From Microbacterium sp. AK009 (lineage in GTDB: Bacteria; Actinomycetota; Actinomycetes; Actinomycetales; Microbacteriaceae): a DNA stretch of 64,000 bases. Of the stretch, positions 3,835 to 25,668 are shown piece after piece (the first letter of the stretch is position 1; the number at the start of each line of letters is the position of its first letter). A model generated the notes under the pieces. The model was not told the DNA's origin, searched no databases, and saw only the letters and a list, made by a program, of their open reading frames with translations. Where the stretch lies: contig NZ_JACCCG010000003.1 in NCBI RefSeq assembly GCF_013410955.1, forward strand, positions 434,001 through 498,000, in the 5' to 3' direction. Made by a program: the position numbers and the translations under genes.

Positions 3835-5550
3835 GTGGCACTTCAGGCAGAGGCGACGCCGGAAGGCGTGTACACCGTCGGCGACTATCTGCTCGATCGG
3901 CTCGCGGGCGCCGGTGTGCGGCACCTCTTCGGCGTTCCGGGGGATTTCACCCTGGCCTTCCTCGACCACGTGCAGGCCCACCCCGACATCGAGTGGGTCG
4001 GCTGCGCGAACGAACTGGGCGCAGGCTACGCCGCCGACGGCTACGCCCGACTTCACGGACTGGGGGCGCTGTGCACGACCTTCGGGGTGGGGGAACTGTC
4101 GGCGATCGCCGCACTCGCGGGCAGCCGCGCCGAGCACGTGCCGGTCGTCCACATCGTCGGTGCCCCGACGACCGCCACGCGGGCGGCTGGTCGGGCCACG
4201 CACCACACCCTGGGTGACGGCGACTTCGGACACTTCGCCCGAATGACCGCGGAGGTCGCCGCGGCACACGCGACCGTCACCGCCGGGGGGTACGCCGACG
4301 AGATCGACAGCGTCGTGATGGAGGCCCGCGACCGTCGCCTTCCCGGCTACCTCGTGCTCCCCGCCGATGTCGCCGCCGCACCCGCCACCCCGCCCTCCGC
4401 GCCGCTCCCCGAGCATCCCGGGGTCACTGACGCAGGCGTCGCGGCCGACTTCCGCGCGCGCTTGGTCGAAGGGATGACGTACGCGTCGAGCGTGACGCTG
4501 CTCGCCGACATCCTCGTCTCGCGTCTCGGTGCCGAGGACCACCTGCATCGCGTTACGACCCTCGGCGTGCCCCACGCGACGCTGCTCTGGGGGCGCCGCG
4601 TGGTCGACGAGTCGGCGCCCGGGTACCTCGGTTCGTACCTGGGTGCGTCGAGCGACGAGCACGTGCGGGTCGCGGTGGAAGATGCCGATCTGCTCGTCAT
4701 GGCCGGCGTGCAGTTCACCGATCTGACCAGCGGCTTCTTCTCGCAGCGCATCGATCCGGCCCGGGCGATCGAGATCGGCGGCGAGGCGGTGTCGTGGGAT
4801 GGGCGCATCTTCACGCCCCTGACAATGACCGACGCGCTGGACATCGTCGCCGAGGTCCTCGCCGGAACCGGCGCCGGTGATCGTGCGAGCGCGACGGATG
4901 CTGCGCCCACGCGCGCGACCCTGACGACCTCCAGTGATTGTGAGCCCGGTGTGGACACCCCGCTCGGGCAGGAGGCACTCTGGCGCGAGGTCGCTGACTT
5001 CCTCAGGCCCGGCGACATCGTCTTCGCCGATCAGGGCACATCGTTCTACGGCATGGCCGATCACCGCCTGCCCGGCGGTGTCACCTTCGTCGGGCAGCCC
5101 CTGTGGGCCTCGATCGGCTACACCCTGCCGGCGGTGCTCGGCGCGGCGCTCGCCGTCCCCGATCGGCGGCCGGTGCTCCTCATCGGCGACGGCGCCGCCC
5201 AGATGACCGTGGGCGAACTGGGTACGCTCCTGCGCCGCGGTGTGCCCGCCGTGGTGGTCATCGTCGACAACGCCGGGTACACCGTCGAGCGGGTCATCCA
5301 CGGCGCGAACGAGGCCTACAACGACATCGGCACGTGGGACTGGGTGAAGTTGATGAGGGCGATGGATGCCAGGGGGTCGGCCCGCGGCATCCGTGTCGAC
5401 ACCGCCGCGGGATTGCACGCCGCGCTCTCCGAGGCGCGCGAGTCCACGTCTCTGACGCTCATCCAGGCCGTCGTCCCGCCGCAGGACGTGCCGCCGGTCT
5501 TGCGGACGATCGCCGCCGCCGCGGCGGCCGCGAACCGGCCGAAGGGCTGA
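3835..5550 (+). CDS. Thiamine-diphosphate 2-oxoacid decarboxylase (indolepyruvate/pyruvate decarboxylase family)
   Basis: 571 residues from GTG 3835, preceded by GGATGGGGG; this gives the usual family length (about 550). It removes CO2 from a 2-oxo acid to give an aldehyde using ThDP and Mg2+. Landmarks: N-terminal Pyr domain with YLLDRLAGAGVRHLFGVPGD, the ThDP-activating Glu60 in ELGAGYAADGYAR, the paired histidines of HHTLGDGDF (about 123-124) that mark pyruvate/indolepyruvate/branched-chain decarboxylases, and the GDG...DNAGYTVE cofactor motif starting near residue 451. Candidate roles are Ehrlich-type amino-acid breakdown or indole-acetaldehyde formation; neighbours do not settle which. 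It is a single gene convergent with gluconokinase. Confidence 0.85.
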   Translation: MALQAEATPEGVYTVGDYLLDRLAGAGVRHLFGVPGDFTLAFLDHVQAHPDIEWVGCANELGAGYAADGYARLHGLGALCTTFGVGELSAIAALAGSRAEHVPVVHIVGAPTTATRAAGRATHHTLGDGDFGHFARMTAEVAAAHATVTAGGYADEIDSVVMEARDRRLPGYLVLPADVAAAPATPPSAPLPEHPGVTDAGVAADFRARLVEGMTYASSVTLLADILVSRLGAEDHLHRVTTLGVPHATLLWGRRVVDESAPGYLGSYLGASSDEHVRVAVEDADLLVMAGVQFTDLTSGFFSQRIDPARAIEIGGEAVSWDGRIFTPLTMTDALDIVAEVLAGTGAGDRASATDAAPTRATLTTSSDCEPGVDTPLGQEALWREVADFLRPGDIVFADQGTSFYGMADHRLPGGVTFVGQPLWASIGYTLPAVLGAALAVPDRRPVLLIGDGAAQMTVGELGTLLRRGVPAVVVIVDNAGYTVERVIHGANEAYNDIGTWDWVKLMRAMDARGSARGIRVDTAAGLHAALSEARESTSLTLIQAVVPPQDVPPVLRTIAAAAAAANRPKG

Positions 5551-18175: not shown

Positions 18176-19600
18176 GTGACCCCCGAAACCCCCGCCCGGG
18201 GCGGCCTCCCCGACGGCGCCCCCGGCAGTGACGCCGCGCGGATGCACGCCATCACCCCGCAGACCACCGCCGTCGTCGACCAGGTGCTCGAGTACGCCCG
18301 CCGCCGGGCGCTGTACCCCGACGTCCCGCTCGATCGGGCGATGCGCCTCGCCGATCTCCGACGGCTCGCCGGCGACTCGATCCGCCCCGACGGCATGGGG
18401 TCCGAGCGCGCGCTCGCCCTCTTCGAGCACGTGCTCGCTCCGGCGTGCCTGTCCACCGACCACCCCGGATACCTCTCCTTCATCCCGTCCGCACCGTCGA
18501 AGGCCGCCCTCGCGTTCGACGTCGTCGTGTCGGCATCCGCGATCTACGGGGGCTCGTGGATGGAGGGGTCCGGCGCCGTCTTCGCCGAGAACGAGGTGCT
18601 GCGCTGGCTCGCCGGCGAGTTCGGCCTTCCCGCCTCGGCGGGCGGGGTGTTCGTGCAGGGCGGCACGATCGGCAATCTCTCAGCCCTCGTCACCGCGCGG
18701 GATCACGCGCGCCGTCGAGCCGTCGACGCCGAGCGCCCGGCACCCGCCCGCTGGGCCGTCGTCTGCAGCGCCGAGGCGCACTCGTCGATCGCCTCGGCGG
18801 CGGCGGTCATGGATGTCGATGTGCTCACCGCCGAGGTGGGGGACGACGGCAGGCTGCGGGGCGACGCGGTGCGCGCGGTGCTCGACGCGCACGGTGATCG
18901 GGTCTTCGCCGTGGTCGCCACCGCCGGCACGACCAACTTCGGCATCGTTGACGACATCGCCTCGGTCGCCGCCGCGGCGCGCGAGGCGGGGGTGTGGTTC
19001 CACGTCGACGGCGCCTACGGACTCGCGGCGATGCTGTCCCCGGAGTTGCGACCGCTGTTCGCCGGAGTGGAGCAGGCCGATTCGGTCATCGTCGATCCGC
19101 ACAAGTGGCTGTTCGCGCCCTTCGACGCCTGCGCGCTCATCTACCGCGACCCGGTGCCGGCGATCCAGGCGCACACGCAGAAGGCCGAGTACCTCGACAC
19201 CCTCACCGATTCGCTCGACTGGAACCCGTCCGACCTCGCCATCCAGCTGACCCGCCGGGCGCGCGGTCTGCCGCTGTGGTTCTCCCTCGCCGTGCACGGC
19301 ACCGAGCAGTACCGGGTGACGATCGCCGATGCGGTCTCGCGCGCGAAGCGCCTCGCCGATGACATCCGCCGTCGTCCCGAGCTGTCGCTCGTGCGCGAGC
19401 CCGACCTGTCGGTGGTGGTGTTCCGTCGTGAGGGATGGTCGCTCGCAGAGTACGAGGCGTGGTCCGACCGGCTGCTCGATGAGCAGCGCGCCTTCGTCGT
19501 GCCCAGCTCGCACCGCGGCGAACCTGTGCTGCGCATCGCCCTCATCTCACCACTCACGACCGACGAGCTGCTGGGCGAGATCCTCGACTCGCTGGCCTGA
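18176..19600 (+). CDS. PLP-dependent group II amino-acid decarboxylase-like protein
   Basis: 474 residues from GTG 18176. Fold-type I PLP enzyme of the aromatic-amino-acid/glutamate decarboxylase group. The cofactor Lys310 is in VDPHKWLFAPFD, preceded by FHVDGAYG (the Asp that contacts the pyridine nitrogen) and TAGTTNFGIVDDI. The substrate-domain opening HPGYLSFIPSAPSKAAL is typical of this group. It would release CO2 from an amino acid to make an amine, or act on a related substrate such as tyrosine, tryptophan or aspartate; specificity cannot be read. It stands alone behind a leaderless promoter, although close enough to the preceding operon to be functionally linked. Confidence 0.82.
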   Translation: MTPETPARGGLPDGAPGSDAARMHAITPQTTAVVDQVLEYARRRALYPDVPLDRAMRLADLRRLAGDSIRPDGMGSERALALFEHVLAPACLSTDHPGYLSFIPSAPSKAALAFDVVVSASAIYGGSWMEGSGAVFAENEVLRWLAGEFGLPASAGGVFVQGGTIGNLSALVTARDHARRRAVDAERPAPARWAVVCSAEAHSSIASAAAVMDVDVLTAEVGDDGRLRGDAVRAVLDAHGDRVFAVVATAGTTNFGIVDDIASVAAAAREAGVWFHVDGAYGLAAMLSPELRPLFAGVEQADSVIVDPHKWLFAPFDACALIYRDPVPAIQAHTQKAEYLDTLTDSLDWNPSDLAIQLTRRARGLPLWFSLAVHGTEQYRVTIADAVSRAKRLADDIRRRPELSLVREPDLSVVVFRREGWSLAEYEAWSDRLLDEQRAFVVPSSHRGEPVLRIALISPLTTDELLGEILDSLA

Positions 19601-19697
19601 CCGCGACGCCCCGGGCCCCGAAACAGACCTCCCCCGCCGACACCGACCGCGGCGCGCTGCGTCTCGACGGCACAGGTGGGTCTCGGCGCGGTGACCG

Positions 19698-19994
19698 TCA
19701 ACCGCCGGAGGCCCGGGGGCCGGGCTTGGTGAGCGTCGCCAGCAGCTCGCCGATCAGATGGTCGCTCTCGATCGGATGCCGCAGCGGCAGGTCTTCCACG
19801 CACTCGTAGCGATTGCGCCGGCCCGACTTCTCTCGCCGCAGGTAACCGGCATCGACGAGGTCGCTGAGGATCCCCTGGGCCGTGCGCTCGGTGATGCCGA
19901 CGGCGTCGGCGATGTCGCGCACCCGCGCGCCGGGATCGCGGGCGACGTAGATCAGCACGTGAGCGTGATTGGTCATGAAGGTCCATCCGCTCAT
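19698..19994 (-). CDS. Small winged-helix (MarR/ArsR-like) regulator next to the dab genes
   Basis: 98 residues with a single winged-helix domain: NHAHVLIYVARDPGARVRDIADAVG, recognition helix ITERTAQGILSDLVDAGYL, wing RREKSGRRNRYECV. There is no metal-binding Cys pair of the ArsR type and no added sensor domain; the tail DLPLRHPIESDHLIGELLATL may dimerise. Divergent from dabB across a 90-base region that contains a palindrome over the dabB -10 box, so it is the likely regulator of the carbon-uptake operon. The signal it senses is unknown. Confidence 0.75.
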   Translation of the reverse strand: MSGWTFMTNHAHVLIYVARDPGARVRDIADAVGITERTAQGILSDLVDAGYLRREKSGRRNRYECVEDLPLRHPIESDHLIGELLATLTKPGPRASGG

Positions 19995-20046
19995 GATCCG
20001 ATCCTACCCGCGGGGCCCGGAAGGGCGGCGGTCTAAAACGGGTGCT

Positions 20047-20076
20047 TTGACACCGGTAATCAAATACAGGTATTGT
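20047..20076 (+). promoter_or_regulatory. dabB promoter with overlapping palindrome
   Basis: TTGACA (20047-20052), 18-base spacer, TATTGT (20071-20076), then seven bases to ATG 20084, i.e. a near-consensus and probably leaderless promoter. The palindrome AATACAGGTATT (arms AATAC/GTATT, about 20063-20074) covers the -10 box, so a protein bound there would block polymerase. The divergent winged-helix protein is the natural candidate. A second palindromic core ACCGGT lies just upstream in the spacer. Confidence 0.6.
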
Positions 20077-20083
20077 GCGACGC

Positions 20084-21460
20084 ATGACTTGGCCGACCCT
20101 CCGCTCTCTCGCGCCGACTCTGGTGCTGGTCGTCACCCTCCTCGCCGGGCTCGGCGTCGCCGTGGCCCGCGGTGACGTCGTCGGGGCCGTGCTCACTGTG
20201 CTGGTCGTCGGCCTCACGGGGGTGGTGCAGTCCTTCAGCAGGCGGCACCTGCGCGGCGACCCGCGTGCCGGCCGGTTCCTGGCCTATTCCACGGCATTCG
20301 CCGGGGCGAGCGTCGTCGCCGTCACCGCATCGACGCTGGTCGTCCTGGCCGCGGGGTGGAGCGCGGCGAGTGTCTTCATGGCGCTCCTGCTCGCGACGGG
20401 TGGAGCGCCGCAGACCGCGGTGGCCGTCCGTCGGGCCGGTGTCGCCTTCGTCGTCGGCGACCTCGCCCTCTGGGGCGCCGTCGCCCTCACCGTGGCGTCG
20501 CTCGGCACCACGGGATTCGCCGACCTCGCCGACCTCGGCCCCGTCGCCGCTGCTGCCGTCGGCGCACTGATCGCGGTCGCCGCGGTGGCCCGCGCCGCCT
20601 CGGTGCCCTTCCACGGCTGGCTGTCCGCGACGGTCGCGAGCACGACACCGGTCTCCGCCCTCCTCCACGCCGGATTCGTCAACGCCGGAGCTCTGCTGCT
20701 GCTGCGCACCGACGCCGTCCCCTCGTTCGCCGGGCCCCTCGTCGTCGGCGTGTCCGGCGCCCTCACCGTCGTCATCGCCGGTGCGGCGATGCTCACCCGA
20801 AGCGACGTCAAGGGCAGACTCGTCCAGTCCACGGCGGCGCAGATGGGCTTCATGCTCGTCGCCTGCAGCCTCGGGGCCTTCGCCGTCGCCCTGGTGCATG
20901 TGGTCGGGCACGCGCTGTTCAAGGCGAGCCTCTTCCTCGGTGCCGGGTCGGCCATGGAGCGGGCGGTCTCCGGACGCGCCGCCCCGCGCACAGACCGGGA
21001 CCCTCGGATGCCGCTGCTCGCCGCCCTCGCGGTGATCGCCGTCGCCGTCGCCGCGGTGATCGGCACGGCGGCGTGGACGAGCCCCTCGGCGGTGCTCCTG
21101 CTGTTCGTCGTCACCACCGCCGCGGTCGCCGCCGCGCAGCTCGCCGGGGGCGCGCTTTCCTCCGCAGCACGGCTGGCCGGTGTCGCACTCGTCGGGGGCG
21201 CCGTGGTGACCTACGTCTTCGCCGTGGGCGGCCTGGGCGGGCTCCTCGGCCTTCCGCCCGCCGCTGCGGCCATGCCGCCCGCGCTCGCCGTCGCGACCTT
21301 CGCCGCAGGCCTCGCCGTCGCGTTCCTCGCGCAGACGCGGGGAGCGCTCGCGGATCGCGCGTACGTCTTCGCCCTCGGCTGGGGGCGTCCGCCCCTGCCG
21401 GTCTCCTCGTCCGTTCCCGCCGGATCGTCCGGCCCTCGTGAATACCGGAGCGCGTCATGA
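20084..21460 (+). CDS. dabB: DabB: proton-conducting membrane subunit of an inorganic-carbon uptake complex
   Basis: 458 residues of the NuoL/MrpA antiporter-like family (Proton_antipo_M), with about 13 hydrophobic helices. Recognisable core: VPFHGWLSATVASTTPVSALLHAGFVNAGALLL and the helix with MLTRSDVKGRLVQSTAAQMGFML, then LVHVVGHALFKASLFLGAGS, which carries the conserved Lys and His of the proton path. ATG 20084 was chosen over an earlier in-frame codon because of the promoter position. A lone NuoL-like gene followed directly by a DUF2309 gene is the DAB arrangement, not a complex I fragment; it is thought to couple cation flow to DabA-catalysed CO2 hydration. Confidence 0.9.
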   Translation: MTWPTLRSLAPTLVLVVTLLAGLGVAVARGDVVGAVLTVLVVGLTGVVQSFSRRHLRGDPRAGRFLAYSTAFAGASVVAVTASTLVVLAAGWSAASVFMALLLATGGAPQTAVAVRRAGVAFVVGDLALWGAVALTVASLGTTGFADLADLGPVAAAAVGALIAVAAVARAASVPFHGWLSATVASTTPVSALLHAGFVNAGALLLLRTDAVPSFAGPLVVGVSGALTVVIAGAAMLTRSDVKGRLVQSTAAQMGFMLVACSLGAFAVALVHVVGHALFKASLFLGAGSAMERAVSGRAAPRTDRDPRMPLLAALAVIAVAVAAVIGTAAWTSPSAVLLLFVVTTAAVAAAQLAGGALSSAARLAGVALVGGAVVTYVFAVGGLGGLLGLPPAAAAMPPALAVATFAAGLAVAFLAQTRGALADRAYVFALGWGRPPLPVSSSVPAGSSGPREYRSAS

Positions 21461-24048
21461 CCGTCCCCTCCCTGCACGACAGCGTCCTCGAGCAGCGCGC
21501 CACGATCCGCGGCATGGTCGCCGCCGCGGCGCGCGCGATCTCGCCGCACTACCCGCTCGAGACCTTCATCGCGCGAAACCCCGTCGCCGACTACGAGCGC
21601 CTGCGCTTCGAAGACGCCATCCGGGCCGTCGCGGCCGATCACGATGCGGGCCTCACTCACCCCGAGCCCGTGTTCCGGCAGCTCTTCGACGCGGGAAGGA
21701 TCACCGAAGACGACCTTCGCCACGCGATCGCGTTCCACGTCGCCGAGGCGCGGAGCCGTCGCATCCTCTGCTGCGGCGAGAAGGAGGTGACGGTCGGTGA
21801 GCTGCTCCTGCTCGACCTGTGCCACGCGCCCGAGGGCCCCTCACCGCACCCGACGCTGCGGACGCCGGCGGCGCTGCGCTCGCCGAAGGTGCATGCGCGC
21901 ATCGACGAACACGTCGGCCGTTGGCTCAGCGCCGCCTTCGCCGACGCCTCGTGGTCACGGCGAACGGAGGACGTCGGCCTGTGGGAGGCGTGGCGCCGGC
22001 TGGCCCCGCTCGACCTGCGTCTTCCGCGACGCGTGCGCTCCGGCATCCGCTGGTCGCCGACCCACCCCGAAGACGCCATCGCCGACGTGCTCGGGCAGTG
22101 GGAGTGGGACGACGCGACCGCGACGCAGTACCTGCGGGCGCACGTGCTCGCGCAGCCCGGGTGGACGGCGGCGGTGCGACACGCTGCGATGACGGGGAAC
22201 GAGCGGATGTCGGTGACCGCCCTCATCGCCCTGAGGGTCACCCTCGAATCCCTCCTCCTCGACGATCACGACATCACCCCCGAAGAGCTCGGGTACACCC
22301 GCCGGACGGCGGATCCGCCGGCGCCCGACGACGACAGGATCGACGTCGTCGGCCGGGCGGCGGGTGTGGATGTCACGGATCCCGCGGTGCGGCAGGGGCT
22401 GTCCCGCGTGCTGAGCCTCGTCGACCCGGCGAGTCGGCGGGCGATCTGGCAGGAGGCCTATGAGCGCGGGGTCGCCCGTCGGCTCGCCCCCGCGATCGCC
22501 CCGGTGCTCCGGCCCGTCGGTCCCTCCGCAGAGCGACCGATCGCCCAGGCGGTGTTCTGCATCGACCCGCGGTCCGAGGGCATCCGCCGCCACCTCGAGG
22601 CAGCCGGGCGTGTCGAGACGCTCGGCTTCGCCGGCTTCTTCGCCGTGCCGATCTGGTTCCGCAGCGCCGCGGGCGGGCCGGCCGTCGCATCCTGCCCGGT
22701 GCTCCTGACCCCGAGGCGCGCCGTGTCGGAGTCCTCCTCAGACCACGAGCCCCTCGCTCGCTGGCAGGGGCGACTCGCCTGCGGTCATGCCCTGCGCGGC
22801 ACCTTCGGGCGGGTCAAGGACTCGACGATCGCGCCCTTCGCTCTGGCCGAGACCGCCGGGTGGCTCATGGGCCCCGCGATGGCTGCCCGGACCGTCAGCC
22901 CGACCGGGTGGCGGGCGCTCGTGGAGCAGGTCGGTCGGCTGCTGCCGGCGAAACCGGCGACCCGGCTCGACGCGGATGTCGCGATGAACCTCGACGAGCG
23001 GGTGCTCTACGCCGAGGCGGCCCTGCGCATGATGGGCCTCGTCGACGGCTTCGCGCGCCTCGTCGTGCTCGCCGGTCATGGCGCGGCGGTGACGAACAAC
23101 CCCTACGCGTCGGCGCTGCAGTGCGGCGCCTGCGGCGGACACGAGGGCGCACCCAACGCCCGGGCGGCCGCCCTTGTCTTCAACGACCCGCCCACCCGTG
23201 CCCGGTTGGCAGAGCGCGGCATCGCTATTCCCGACGACACCCTCTTCGTCGCGGCCCAGCACGACACCGTCACCGACGCCGTGCGGCTGCTCGAACCGTG
23301 GGCGATCCCCGCCACCCACGCCGACGACGTCGAAGTGCTGGAGGCCGTGTTCGACCGCGCTCGCGCAGGGCACGCCGCGGAACGGCTGGCGGTGCTGCCC
23401 GGCGCCGCCGGCGCGGACCCGCTGCGGGAGACCGCACGTCGCGGGGCTGACTGGGCGGAGGTGTACCCGGAGTGGGGCCTTGCGGGCAACGCCGCCTTCA
23501 TCGTGGGGCCGCGCAGCATCACCGCCGGACACGACCTCGGCCGCCGAGCCTTCCTCCACAGCTATGACGCCGACGCCGACCCCGACGGCTCGGGACTGGA
23601 GACGATCCTCACCGCCCCGATGATCGTCGCGCAGTGGATCAACGCGCAGTACGCAGCATCCGCTCTCTCACCCGACCGATTCGGTGCCGGGCCGAAGCCC
23701 CTCCACAACGTCGTCGGGACCATCGGCGTGCTCTCGGGGTACGGCGGCGACCTGCGGATCGGCCTGCCGTGGCAGTCGGTCGGGGTGGGCGGCGAACTCG
23801 CGCACGAGCCGGTGCGCCTGCAGGTGTTCGTGCAGGCGCCGTTCGCCCGCCTCAACCTCCTTCTGGAGTCGGCGGAGGTCGTCCGCGACCTCGTCGACAA
23901 GGAGTGGATCACGCTGCGCGCCCGCGAGCATGACACCGACCGTTGGCTCCGCTTCGGACCCTACGGCTGGGTGGCCGAACCCGACCTCAACGCCGTTCCC
24001 GCCGACACCCCCGCGTCCACCCTCGAGAACCTGGAGGCTTCACGATGA
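21457..24048 (+). CDS. dabA: DabA: carbonic-anhydrase-like subunit of the DAB CO2/bicarbonate uptake system (UPF0753/DUF2309)
   Basis: 863 residues, close to the usual size. Cytoplasmic, membrane-bound partner of DabB that hydrates CO2 to bicarbonate at a zinc site resembling beta-carbonic anhydrases. The four ligands described for Halothiobacillus DabA (C351, D353, H524, C539) have exact counterparts here with identical spacing: C368 and D370 in VFCIDPRSEGIRRHLE, H541 in LAGHGAAVTNNPYASALQ and C556 in CGACGGHEGAPNA. The N-terminal PLETFIARNPVADYE is also family-typical. It overlaps dabB and the downstream PII-like gene by four bases each, so the three are one translation unit. Full active-site conservation argues for a working enzyme. 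Confidence 0.93.
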   Translation: MTVPSLHDSVLEQRATIRGMVAAAARAISPHYPLETFIARNPVADYERLRFEDAIRAVAADHDAGLTHPEPVFRQLFDAGRITEDDLRHAIAFHVAEARSRRILCCGEKEVTVGELLLLDLCHAPEGPSPHPTLRTPAALRSPKVHARIDEHVGRWLSAAFADASWSRRTEDVGLWEAWRRLAPLDLRLPRRVRSGIRWSPTHPEDAIADVLGQWEWDDATATQYLRAHVLAQPGWTAAVRHAAMTGNERMSVTALIALRVTLESLLLDDHDITPEELGYTRRTADPPAPDDDRIDVVGRAAGVDVTDPAVRQGLSRVLSLVDPASRRAIWQEAYERGVARRLAPAIAPVLRPVGPSAERPIAQAVFCIDPRSEGIRRHLEAAGRVETLGFAGFFAVPIWFRSAAGGPAVASCPVLLTPRRAVSESSSDHEPLARWQGRLACGHALRGTFGRVKDSTIAPFALAETAGWLMGPAMAARTVSPTGWRALVEQVGRLLPAKPATRLDADVAMNLDERVLYAEAALRMMGLVDGFARLVVLAGHGAAVTNNPYASALQCGACGGHEGAPNARAAALVFNDPPTRARLAERGIAIPDDTLFVAAQHDTVTDAVRLLEPWAIPATHADDVEVLEAVFDRARAGHAAERLAVLPGAAGADPLRETARRGADWAEVYPEWGLAGNAAFIVGPRSITAGHDLGRRAFLHSYDADADPDGSGLETILTAPMIVAQWINAQYAASALSPDRFGAGPKPLHNVVGTIGVLSGYGGDLRIGLPWQSVGVGGELAHEPVRLQVFVQAPFARLNLLLESAEVVRDLVDKEWITLRAREHDTDRWLRFGPYGWVAEPDLNAVPADTPASTLENLEASR

Positions 24049-24368
24049 GCACGACCGCCCTCACCCCGATGACCAAGATCGAGATCGTCGTGCCGGGAGA
24101 CGACGCCGCCGACGTCGCCGAGCTCATCCGCTCCGTCGGCGCCCGCGGGTACACCTCGGTCTCGGGCGTCTCGGGCTTCGGCCACCACGGCGTCCGTGGT
24201 GGACGGATGCTCTTCAACGAACACGACGCGCTGACGCTCCTCATCACGGTGGTGCCGGATCATCGGGCGGATGCGATCGTCGCGGGCATCCGACCGATCC
24301 TCGACCGCACCTCGGGGGTGATGTTCGTCTCGCCGACCGCCGTGAGCCGCCCCGACTACTTCGCGTGA
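24045..24368 (+). CDS. PII-like signalling protein linked to dabAB
   Basis: 107 residues from ATG 24045. The beta-alpha-beta arrangement is that of PII: TKIEIVVPGDDAADVAELIRSVG, then GYTSVSGVSGFGHHG where classical PII has VKGFGRQKG, a shortened T-loop region RGGRMLFNEHDA, a second strand LTLLITVVPDHRADAIVAGI, and the C-terminal TSGVMFVSPTAVSR. The uridylylated T-loop Tyr of GlnB/GlnK is missing, so it is not a nitrogen PII. In this respect it resembles SbtB and carboxysome-associated PII-like proteins that respond to adenine nucleotides or bicarbonate. Inferred role: gate DabAB activity. Confidence 0.8.
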   Translation: MSTTALTPMTKIEIVVPGDDAADVAELIRSVGARGYTSVSGVSGFGHHGVRGGRMLFNEHDALTLLITVVPDHRADAIVAGIRPILDRTSGVMFVSPTAVSRPDYFA

Positions 24369-24430
24369 CCGGCGCGTGCGGGGGCGGTCAGCCCGCCGAG
24401 GGGCGCGTGTCGAGCACCGACACGGGACGC

Positions 24431-24451
24431 CGGGGCCGTCAGCCGGCCCCG
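24431..24451. terminator. Hairpin between convergent dab operon and sigma-factor gene
   Basis: CGGGGCCG (24431-24438), five-base loop, CGGCCCCG (24444-24451), a perfect eight-pair stem. It overlaps the 3' end of the sigma-factor gene and can serve both directions. No T-run is present. Confidence 0.55.
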
Positions 24452-25668
24452 CCGAGGAGGTGGGCGCGCACGCGCGGGTCGGTCGTAAGGCCCACCGCGC
24501 GGCGGGTCGCGTCCGCCGCCTCGGCGACCCGTCCGCGTGCCGCTTCGACCCGCGCGAGGCAGACCCAGTACGGCTGATGGTCGGCGACCACGGATGACGG
24601 GAGCACGGCCAGTGCGCGAGCCGCAGCGTCGGCCTCGCCTACCTCGACGAGTGCCGCGGCGGAGCCGATCCTCGCGCCGGTCGACGGCGCGATCTGCAGG
24701 AGGCCGCGATACAGAGCGACCACCGCCCGCCAGTCGGTGGTGCCGGTCTCGGCGCGCGCCGAATGGACGGCACTGATGGCCGCCTCGAGCTGGAATCGCC
24801 CCAGGCGGCCCTGCGCCGCCGCGCGGCGGAGCTCGTCATCGCCGCGCGCACGGAGCACCGCCGACCACAGCCGCGTGTCCTGAGCCCCGAGCGGGACGAA
24901 CCAACCGTTGACGAAGCGCGCCGCGCGCCTGCTCTCGGTGTGGAGCAGGAGCGCGAAGAGTCCCCGCGCTTCTGGGTCGTCGGGGACAAGGGTCGTCATC
25001 ATCTCGGCCAGGCGCAGTGCCTCGGTGCGCAGGGCCGGGCGATCGCCGCCGAGCTCGTCGATGAGCGCATCGGATGCCCCGTACGCCGCGTAGATCGCTC
25101 GCAGCACCGCTCCCACCCGCGTCGGAAGGTCTTCGGGTGACGGCACGCGGTAGCGGATTCCCGCGTCGCGGATCTTCGTCTTCACCCGACTGAGACGCTG
25201 GCCCATGGTGGACGGCGGCACGAGAAAAACCGCGGCGATCCGCGCCGCGTCGACCCCGAGCACGGCCTGCAGCATCAGCGGGGCGTGCATCCTCTCGTCG
25301 ATCGCCGGGTGCGCGCACACGAAGAGCAGGGTGAGGACGTCGTCCTGGGTGGGGGCCGATTCGGTGAGCTCGTCATCGGTCACCGCCATGACGATCATCT
25401 CCTCGGGGGCGACGAGGACGTCCCGGGTGCGGCGGCGCGCTGCGCTGATCGCGGCGTTACGCGCCGCGACCCGGAGCCAGGCCTCGGGAGACCGCGGCAC
25501 CCCGCCCTCCCGCCAGGCGGTGATCGCCTGCGCGAATGCTGTCGCCACGGCATCCTCGGCAGCCTGCAGGTCGCCGTTGCGGCGGAAGAGCCAGCCGACG
25601 AGACGCCCGAAGAGCTCTCGGTGAGCGTCGGCGAGCGCCTCGTCGGGCTGCACGGGGAGGTGTGTCAT
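24439..25668 (-). CDS. ECF42-type RNA polymerase sigma factor with long C-terminal extension
   Basis: 409 residues, twice the size of a simple ECF sigma. Region 2 contains LFGRLVGWLFRRNGDLQAAEDAVATAFAQA and EAWLRVAARNAAISAARR; region 4 contains LMLQAVLGVDAARIAAVFLVPPSTMGQRLSRVKTKIRDAG. A roughly 200-residue C-terminal part (AVLRAIYAAYGASDAL, and later repeats rich in Ala-Leu-Glu such as VALYRGLLQIAPSTG) has the TPR-like character described for group ECF42, which controls activity in place of an anti-sigma factor. Downstream of a DGPF gene and an SRPBCC gene, which is the usual ECF42 context. Confidence 0.85.
   Translation of the reverse strand: MTHLPVQPDEALADAHRELFGRLVGWLFRRNGDLQAAEDAVATAFAQAITAWREGGVPRSPEAWLRVAARNAAISAARRRTRDVLVAPEEMIVMAVTDDELTESAPTQDDVLTLLFVCAHPAIDERMHAPLMLQAVLGVDAARIAAVFLVPPSTMGQRLSRVKTKIRDAGIRYRVPSPEDLPTRVGAVLRAIYAAYGASDALIDELGGDRPALRTEALRLAEMMTTLVPDDPEARGLFALLLHTESRRAARFVNGWFVPLGAQDTRLWSAVLRARGDDELRRAAAQGRLGRFQLEAAISAVHSARAETGTTDWRAVVALYRGLLQIAPSTGARIGSAAALVEVGEADAAARALAVLPSSVVADHQPYWVCLARVEAARGRVAEAADATRRAVGLTTDPRVRAHLLGGAG

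Follow-up and report, generated by a model that had tools for sequence, protein, structure and literature searches.

Introduction

When do heterotrophic bacteria spend proton-motive force (PMF) on pumps of the DAB type, and why is such a pump kept alongside a carbonic anhydrase? Both questions are raised by a four-gene locus of Microbacterium sp. AK009, contained in a stretch of 64,000 nucleotides (contig NZ_JACCCG010000003.1, positions 434,001 to 498,000; hereafter the window, in which all positions given without a contig label are counted). Here, a gene for a small winged-helix (wHTH) regulator diverges from dabB, dabA and a gene for a PII-type protein. Judged by comparative sequence analysis, the locus is probably a switchable operon for CO2-to-bicarbonate uptake, repressed by the wHTH protein and gated by a CPII-like sensor. 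Uptake itself, binding to DNA, a repressing and not an activating role, the signal and whatever the CPII-like protein acts on are inferred parts of this proposal. For the first question, a candidate regulator, a candidate operator whose geometry can be tested and a sensor from a structurally known type can now be proposed; for the second, tight regulation is one testable answer.

In the proposed mechanism, the proton-conducting membrane subunit DabB and the beta-carbonic-anhydrase-like DabA, with its buried zinc, would form a PMF-driven, one-way CO2 hydratase, and under CO2 scarcity the bicarbonate left in the cytoplasm would feed phosphoenolpyruvate (PEP) carboxylase as well as biotin carboxylases. 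The wHTH protein would bind three sites, spaced by 14 bp over the -35 and -10 hexamers, and thereby repress dabB-dabA-PII until a fall in inorganic carbon lifts the repression. The CPII-like protein, which would be translationally coupled to DabA, would read adenylates and bicarbonate and act on DabBA, sparing the PMF whenever the cell has ample bicarbonate or little energy.

Organization of the locus

An earlier note, made from the letters of the window alone, had described a divergent winged-helix gene and NuoL-like, DUF2309 and PII-like genes joined by four-base overlaps, and all four genes were located as it described (Table 1). By Pfam models, from which all profile bit scores are taken, DabA reaches 734 bits with PF10070, covering the whole model, DabB 91.5 bits with PF00361, and the PII protein 70.7 bits with PF00543. 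The adjacency of DabA (PF10070) and the NuoL-like DabB (PF00361) is that of DAB/DAC systems. Both operon junctions are 4-bp ATGA overlaps, and a spacing of -4 or -1 was obtained, window included, in 33 of 37 loci between dabB and dabA, where the script leans towards overlap by choosing the dabA start that comes closest to a 4-base one, and in 30 of 37 between dabA and the PII gene, for which it took the start nearest to the aligned one.

Table 1. Features of the dab locus, numbered as in the window (ORF, open reading frame; aa, amino acids).
Feature	Position	Strand	Basis
Small winged-helix (wHTH) regulator, 98 aa	19698..19994	-	divergent from operon; ORF and Pfam
Operator unit 1 (predicted), AAAACGGGTGCTTT	20035..20048	+	periodicity and unit pattern
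Operator unit 2 (predicted), GACACCGGTAATCA	20049..20062	+	periodicity and unit pattern
Operator unit 3 (predicted), AATACAGGTATTGT, palindrome AATACnnGTATT	20063..20076	+	periodicity and unit pattern
Promoter TTGACA-18-TATTGT	20047..20076	+	predicted, inside operator array
dabB, NuoL/Mrp-like membrane subunit, 458 aa from ATG	20084..21460	+	ORF, Pfam, alignment
dabA, DUF2309/PF10070, 863 aa	21457..24048	+	ORF, Pfam, alignment to DabA2
CPII-like PII protein, 107 aa	24045..24368	+	ORF, Pfam, profile and fold comparison

The predicted dabB promoter is the sole sigma70-like site reported in 19500-24700 (shuffled mean 0.1), and no terminator-like site was reported in the same interval. An alternative GTG start at 20075 would give a 461-aa DabB; because the -10 hexamer (20071-20076) covers this codon, the ATG at 20084 is the likelier start. 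With the promoter in this position, transcription would begin at about 20083-20084, that is, at the ATG itself, and the dabB mRNA would be leaderless. On the other strand, a -10-like TAGGAT at 20006-20001, judged by eye, suggests that the wHTH mRNA is perhaps leaderless too.

The winged-helix regulator and its genomic neighbours

The best Pfam model for the wHTH protein is MarR_2 (36.2 bits against a cut-off of 27), with TrmB, HTH_IclR and HTH_24 also above their own cut-offs, and the 98-residue protein resembles chains of AspA, of MarR and of ArsR, in each case weakly, by sequence and by fold. Its linkage to DAB was surveyed in 38 loci of the family enlarged with flanks (L045-L081, L195), to which the window was added, with duplicate records counted once; the locus of G502, whose 4.7-kb contig ends inside dabB, was left out. 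A wHTH gene diverges from dabB in 36 of the 38, the contig stopping first in L079 and L081, and thus in all 37 loci with enough flank, window included. Outside the family, it lies upstream of dabB in a metagenome-assembled genome of Solirubrobacterales (L095), in Rhodococcus (L096), Promicromonospora (L097 and L133), Arthrobacter (L099) and Tessaracoccus (L101). Across 41 loci outside Actinomycetota (L104-L132, L134-L145), tblastn gave no wHTH match and a PII match in one only (L108, E 0.01); several of these loci are short, and distant homologues could escape such a search.

The regulator is also found beside other bicarbonate systems. Among 366 genus genomes, a wHTH profile (E<=1e-25; up to 13 candidates scored per genome, so that misses are possible) matched 36: 24 of the 25 DabA genomes, 5 of the 5 SbtA genomes and, among the 336 that lack both, 7, hence 29 of the 30 that carry DabA or SbtA. 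In the 25th DabA genome, G526, the locus sits on a contig of 5.9 kb. DabA and SbtA occur together in none of the 366. All five SbtA genes of the genus adjoin a wHTH gene, divergent in four and tandem in one; the intergenic sequences of two of these genomes, G335 and G336, are almost identical. The Fisher p value is 3e-35 for the association of wHTH with DabA or SbtA and 2e-8 for that with SbtA among DabA-free genomes, kinship being ignored in both. In a class survey of 118 genomes, where neighbours were named from scanned ORFs and tblastn matches, the best 30 wHTH loci included six beside DabB-like genes (one of them the window), two beside SbtA and one beside a carbonic anhydrase.

These surveys support the wHTH protein as a regulator tied to the dab operon, from a family not confined to DAB. 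The earlier note had spoken of a dedicated regulator and a signalling protein. Linkage in 37 of 37 loci and the presence of a PII-type protein bear this out, whereas exclusive dedication does not stand, the wHTH family being found also beside SbtA, carbonic anhydrase, TerC and other genes.

Further observations concern the wHTH genes themselves. The window protein is 99% identical to those of relatives whose DabA is only 82-90% identical, which suggests that the regulator is more tightly constrained than the pump. A grouping of all DAB-linked wHTH genes in a single clade was unsupported, with 6 label changes (shuffled mean 20.9) in a tree of few columns and many unresolved forks. Records from Microbacterium (L050/L103), Promicromonospora (L097) and Tessaracoccus (L101) share near-identical wHTH genes and promoter regions, a sign of recent transfer or contamination; the assembly of Promicromonospora umidemergens DSM 22081 is the source of L097 as well as L133, seemingly two different DAB loci. 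The genome of the window holds a wHTH paralogue downstream of a TerC-like gene (C3:236352-246618, L176, at about 4990-5285) and a weaker one at C3:63707-63904, and a TerC match lies close to a wHTH gene in several genus genomes.

The predicted operator

Three predicted units of 14 bp fill 20035-20076 and enclose both promoter hexamers. Their consensus, nnTAC[CA][GT]GTAATTT, is near-palindromic about TACnnGTA, and their position over -35 and -10 would be the geometry of a repressor. The period was assessed by matching the gap between wHTH and dabB to itself, after removal of near-copies and against shuffles that preserve local composition. In Microbacterium (8 gaps kept of 19), self-match at distance 14 was 0.399 against 0.254 expected (z 9.2), with z 8.1 at distance 28; in the other gaps (19 kept of 21, three of the same genus), the values were z 10.1 and z 5.0. 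Genome-wide, the pair of units 2 and 3 is the sole zero-mismatch match of its two-unit pattern. With at most one mismatch, the pattern occurs at four places (reversed control 0), two of them within the array itself and the other two, C1:712131 and C2:142536, possibly by chance.

A spaced-pair position weight matrix (PWM) was trained on Microbacterium loci, so that its score at L183, a locus of that genus, is not independent. Outside the family it was significant upstream of two SbtA-linked wHTH genes, L167 (p 0.001) and L164 (p 0.004). It is possible, at somewhat less than an even chance, that an undescribed actinomycete module for inorganic-carbon control is at work here, in which phased 14-bp palindromes, overlying the promoters of unrelated, interchangeable bicarbonate systems, serve as assembly sites for a wHTH protein of about 95 aa (DAB; SbtA; carbonic anhydrase in one sampled genome). 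If true, low-CO2 uptake in heterotrophs would be a regulated and swappable response.

Several results weigh against this picture of regulator and sites. The 14-bp signal of the window alone is weak (z 2.2), the carbonic-anhydrase-linked locus L151 lacks the period (z -0.8), and all five SbtA loci of Microbacterium fail to score for the predicted operator (p 0.09-0.51). One Arthrobacter locus, L100, has no wHTH gene in the roughly 0.9 kb searched upstream of dabB, and in the class survey the wHTH family also adjoins TerC, STAS/ANTAR, LigD and DUF4192 genes. Single loci give a mixed result for the period, with z 1.5 at L164 and 1.3 at L167 (SbtA-linked, and significant by the PWM pair only) and -0.7 at both L152 and L169 (DAB-linked), and a repeat-finding search of 19990-20100 returned nothing.

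The wHTH protein might instead activate, or control only itself, while the periodic sites belong to another factor. Binding to the sites is a prediction, the DAB-linked wHTH genes do not form one clade, and two Microbacterium SbtA loci next to wHTH show, by eye, a different inverted motif, GGTGAAG..CTTCACC. Such an arrangement is nonetheless rather doubtful, given that periodic sites lie between wHTH and dabB in different genera, that those of the window span -35 to -10, where binding would block the polymerase, and that sites recur at L164 and L167, two wHTH-linked SbtA loci of other families. Repression by the wHTH protein is thus preferred. No published account of the small wHTH protein, of its 14-bp sites or of its sharing between DAB and SbtA was found in searches of open-licence literature, though one may nevertheless exist. 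The core machine is known and its setting ordinary, given the DABs of heterotrophs; the regulatory layer appears to be new, with good comparative support.

The probable DabBA pump

DabA aligns with the solved Halothiobacillus DabA2 (9rd0_A) at E 1.9e-98. The earlier note had named C368, D370, H541 and C556 as four zinc ligands with the spacing of Halothiobacillus DabA. The residues and their spacing agree with the alignment, where they face C351, D353, H524 and C539 at identical distances. The assignment of D370 as a ligand fails, since D353 is part of an Asp-Arg dyad and no zinc ligand in the DabA2 structure (PMC13144422). The window DabA therefore has the Cys/Asp-Arg/His/Cys zinc site of DAB/DAC. 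It also keeps R372, S373, E465, H602, D607, W673 and L675, and of the 16 DabA2 positions compared 15 are identical, the sole change being R653 to Y670.

In DabB, 8 of the 11 DabB2 positions compared are identical (D185, S256, H260, K310, S316, H339, H343, K347), D185 being kept as D129, and the changes are K235 to Arg173, R182 to Val126 and I151 to Ser96. The last of these occupies in DabB2 the site of a NuoL Glu that DabB2 lacks (PMC13144422), and this Glu is missing from the window DabB as well. The finger Glu444 of DabA2 and, in DabB, S256, H260, K310, S316, H339, H343 and K347 are all kept. Mutants of C351, D353, R355, H524, C539 and E444 of DabA2 impair DAB2 (PMC13144422); among residues with impairing alanine mutants, 6 of 6 are kept in DabA and 7 of 7, on the proton path, in DabB. 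The loss of DabB K235 and R182 and of DabA R653 counts against a pump of the same kind. Alanine mutants at the ion-pair residues D185/K235 and at R182 of DAB2 lower growth yield by 30-60% and retain complementation (PMC13144422).

DAB has been described as a PMF-driven CO2 hydratase (PMC13144422), and the window DabBA would likewise pump CO2/bicarbonate. It shares with Halothiobacillus neapolitanus DAB2/DAC (PDB 9rd0, 9rd8, 9rd9; PMC13144422) the DabA family, zinc ligands, Asp-Arg dyad, finger Glu, a conserved Leu and the proton-path residues of DabB. Its DabB is shorter (458 residues against 551), and unlike DAB2 it stands in a genome without RuBisCO, with CPII-like and wHTH partners.

A second alternative is that the two proteins form a cation/proton or Na+/HCO3- transport complex, in the manner of MpsAB, serving membrane energetics or the homeostasis of sodium or pH, and not the supply of carbon. 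DabB is indeed NuoL/Mrp-like, MpsAB was earlier proposed as a Na+/HCO3- symporter, and the supply of bicarbonate may already be covered by a beta-carbonic anhydrase. Against these points stand the conserved active-site residues of DabA2, the case made in the DAB2 paper against sodium coupling for DAB2 (PMC13144422), and a partner regulator and PII type that point to inorganic carbon. A transport complex of this sort is unlikely, and uptake of CO2 as bicarbonate remains the preferred function.

Carbon metabolism and carbonic anhydrase

The earlier note had seen nothing that suggests autotrophy. The RuBisCO large subunit (PF00016) had no match in the whole genome, which backs the statement as far as RuBisCO. 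The note had also presented DAB systems as known for autotrophs and some pathogens; the setting is no surprise, since DAB/MpsAB in non-autotrophs, with an anaplerotic role, is already published (PMC6689103, which, like PMC8552792, PMC8567241, PMC5700660 and PMC4633670, is cited here from excerpts). Staphylococcal MpsAB (PMC6689103, PMC8552792) is likewise a DAB-type system in a non-autotroph, a likeness drawn apart from any sequence comparison. Unlike it, the window system adjoins PII and wHTH genes and coexists with a carbonic anhydrase.

The genome encodes PEP carboxylase and one beta-carbonic anhydrase, an open 217-aa protein (PF00484), so that DAB is not the sole possible source of bicarbonate. 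The earlier proposal that the pump supplies bicarbonate for carboxylases is accordingly retained in part: conserved DAB residues, the lack of RuBisCO and the presence of PEP carboxylase agree with it, and the carbonic anhydrase is a second possible source. Nor would a dabA deletion that lacks a CO2 phenotype refute the function, as had been held, since the beta-carbonic anhydrase may supply bicarbonate. PF00484 is present in 244 of 249 family genomes, including all 15 with DabA; among the 25 DabA genomes of the genus, the search for PF00484 covered that of the window. A role of DAB as stand-in for a missing carbonic anhydrase was rejected, PF00484 being found in all 15 DabA-bearing family genomes and in that of the window.

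This coexistence speaks against a need for the pump. Bicarbonate could come from the beta-carbonic anhydrase, an enzyme that would also run down a bicarbonate gradient, and published accounts call the coexistence of DAB and carbonic anhydrase not really sensible in principle (PMC8552792) and rare (PMC8567241). Species with both DAB/MpsAB and carbonic anhydrase have been listed (PMC6689103). Control by the wHTH and CPII-like proteins would limit futile cycling between the two enzymes. Three loci of one genus (L068, L072 and L073, in G235, G074 and G189) have a gene for a beta-carbonic anhydrase on the opposite strand, some 1.5-1.7 kb past the DAB operon.

Occurrence and loss

DabA is present in 25 of 366 genus genomes and 15 of 249 family genomes. 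Three close relatives carry a DabA 82-90% identical in a layout matching the window. Elsewhere, dabA falls into two matches in G603 (L042/L043) and G593 (L041/L044) and is shortened in G517 (L040). In G436 (L183, 3011-3505), the wHTH gene, the 14-bp sites and about 48 dabB codons are left before another gene follows, and this remnant has 90% DNA identity to G397 over 495 bp. In G250 (L186, 3372-3593), the last half of a second wHTH gene abuts a PII gene reduced to its last 30 residues, and no dabB or dabA match was found at the locus. Both, which are two of the seven wHTH genomes with neither DabA nor SbtA, are read as loss scars; that the PII-like stretch of L186 is a chance match was dropped on checking the locus.

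Because it is sporadic, with split copies in two genomes and deletions in two others, the dab locus is often dispensable, which counts against the proposed reading. An accessory operon in decay, doing little alongside carbonic anhydrase, would account for this sporadic presence, for the split and shortened dabA genes and for the scars in G436 and G250. For the window it is quite improbable, in view of a copy that is open throughout, of key residues, promoter and sites that are kept, and of the three close relatives with matching layout.

The PII protein and related operons

Operons of nuoL-ybcC that end in a PII gene or face a divergent LysR gene are known (PMC5700660). In this COGNAT survey, clade B has the order nuoL-ybcC-PII, as in the window; the divergent regulator is LysR-type and belongs to another clade, and the excerpted part of the survey does not mention a small wHTH protein. 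A PII/SbtB gene also lies beside DUF2309 in Halothiobacillus (PMC4633670).

The PII protein of the operon is, by sequence profile and modelled fold, specifically CPII-like. A profile search gave E 7e-26 for CPII of Thiomonas, against 0.015 for the top SbtB match. Chains of GlnB/GlnK type reach E 2e-5 at most, those with the strongest matches aligning across 31-42 profile positions, and none of them gave a full-length best match of the kind expected of a nitrogen PII. The AlphaFold model has a mean predicted local distance difference test (pLDDT) score of 79.9, with the T-loop below 50. Its top 14 Foldseek matches are all CPII chains, and in VIA-align CPII leads with Z 14.7, ahead of SbtB at 12.7, with 2cz4_C tied (14.3, within 1 Z). 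CPII is thus the closest solved relative by profile and, with that tie, by fold. The CPII of Thiomonas intermedia (PDB 5d4l, 5d4n-p, 5drk, 5ds7) is 31-38% identical to the window protein, depending on chain and method, and shares its SGxGxHG and FN motifs; unlike the Thiomonas gene, that of the window sits in a DAB operon of a RuBisCO-free genome.

That this is the cell's general nitrogen/carbon PII, merely parked in the dab operon, is very improbable: although the genome has no other PF00543 match, as such a role would have it, the protein is CPII-like and not GlnK-like, its gene follows dabA across genera in the loci that cover that part, and 341 of 366 genus genomes lack DabA (a count of DabA only). 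According to their PDB titles, CPII structures were solved with ADP, AMP and bicarbonate. By analogy, the CPII-like protein may sense adenylates and bicarbonate, with DabBA as its target. In cyanobacteria, SbtA-SbtB likewise pairs a bicarbonate importer with a PII-like partner, although SbtA belongs to a different transporter family from DAB and the window PII is nearer to CPII than to SbtB.

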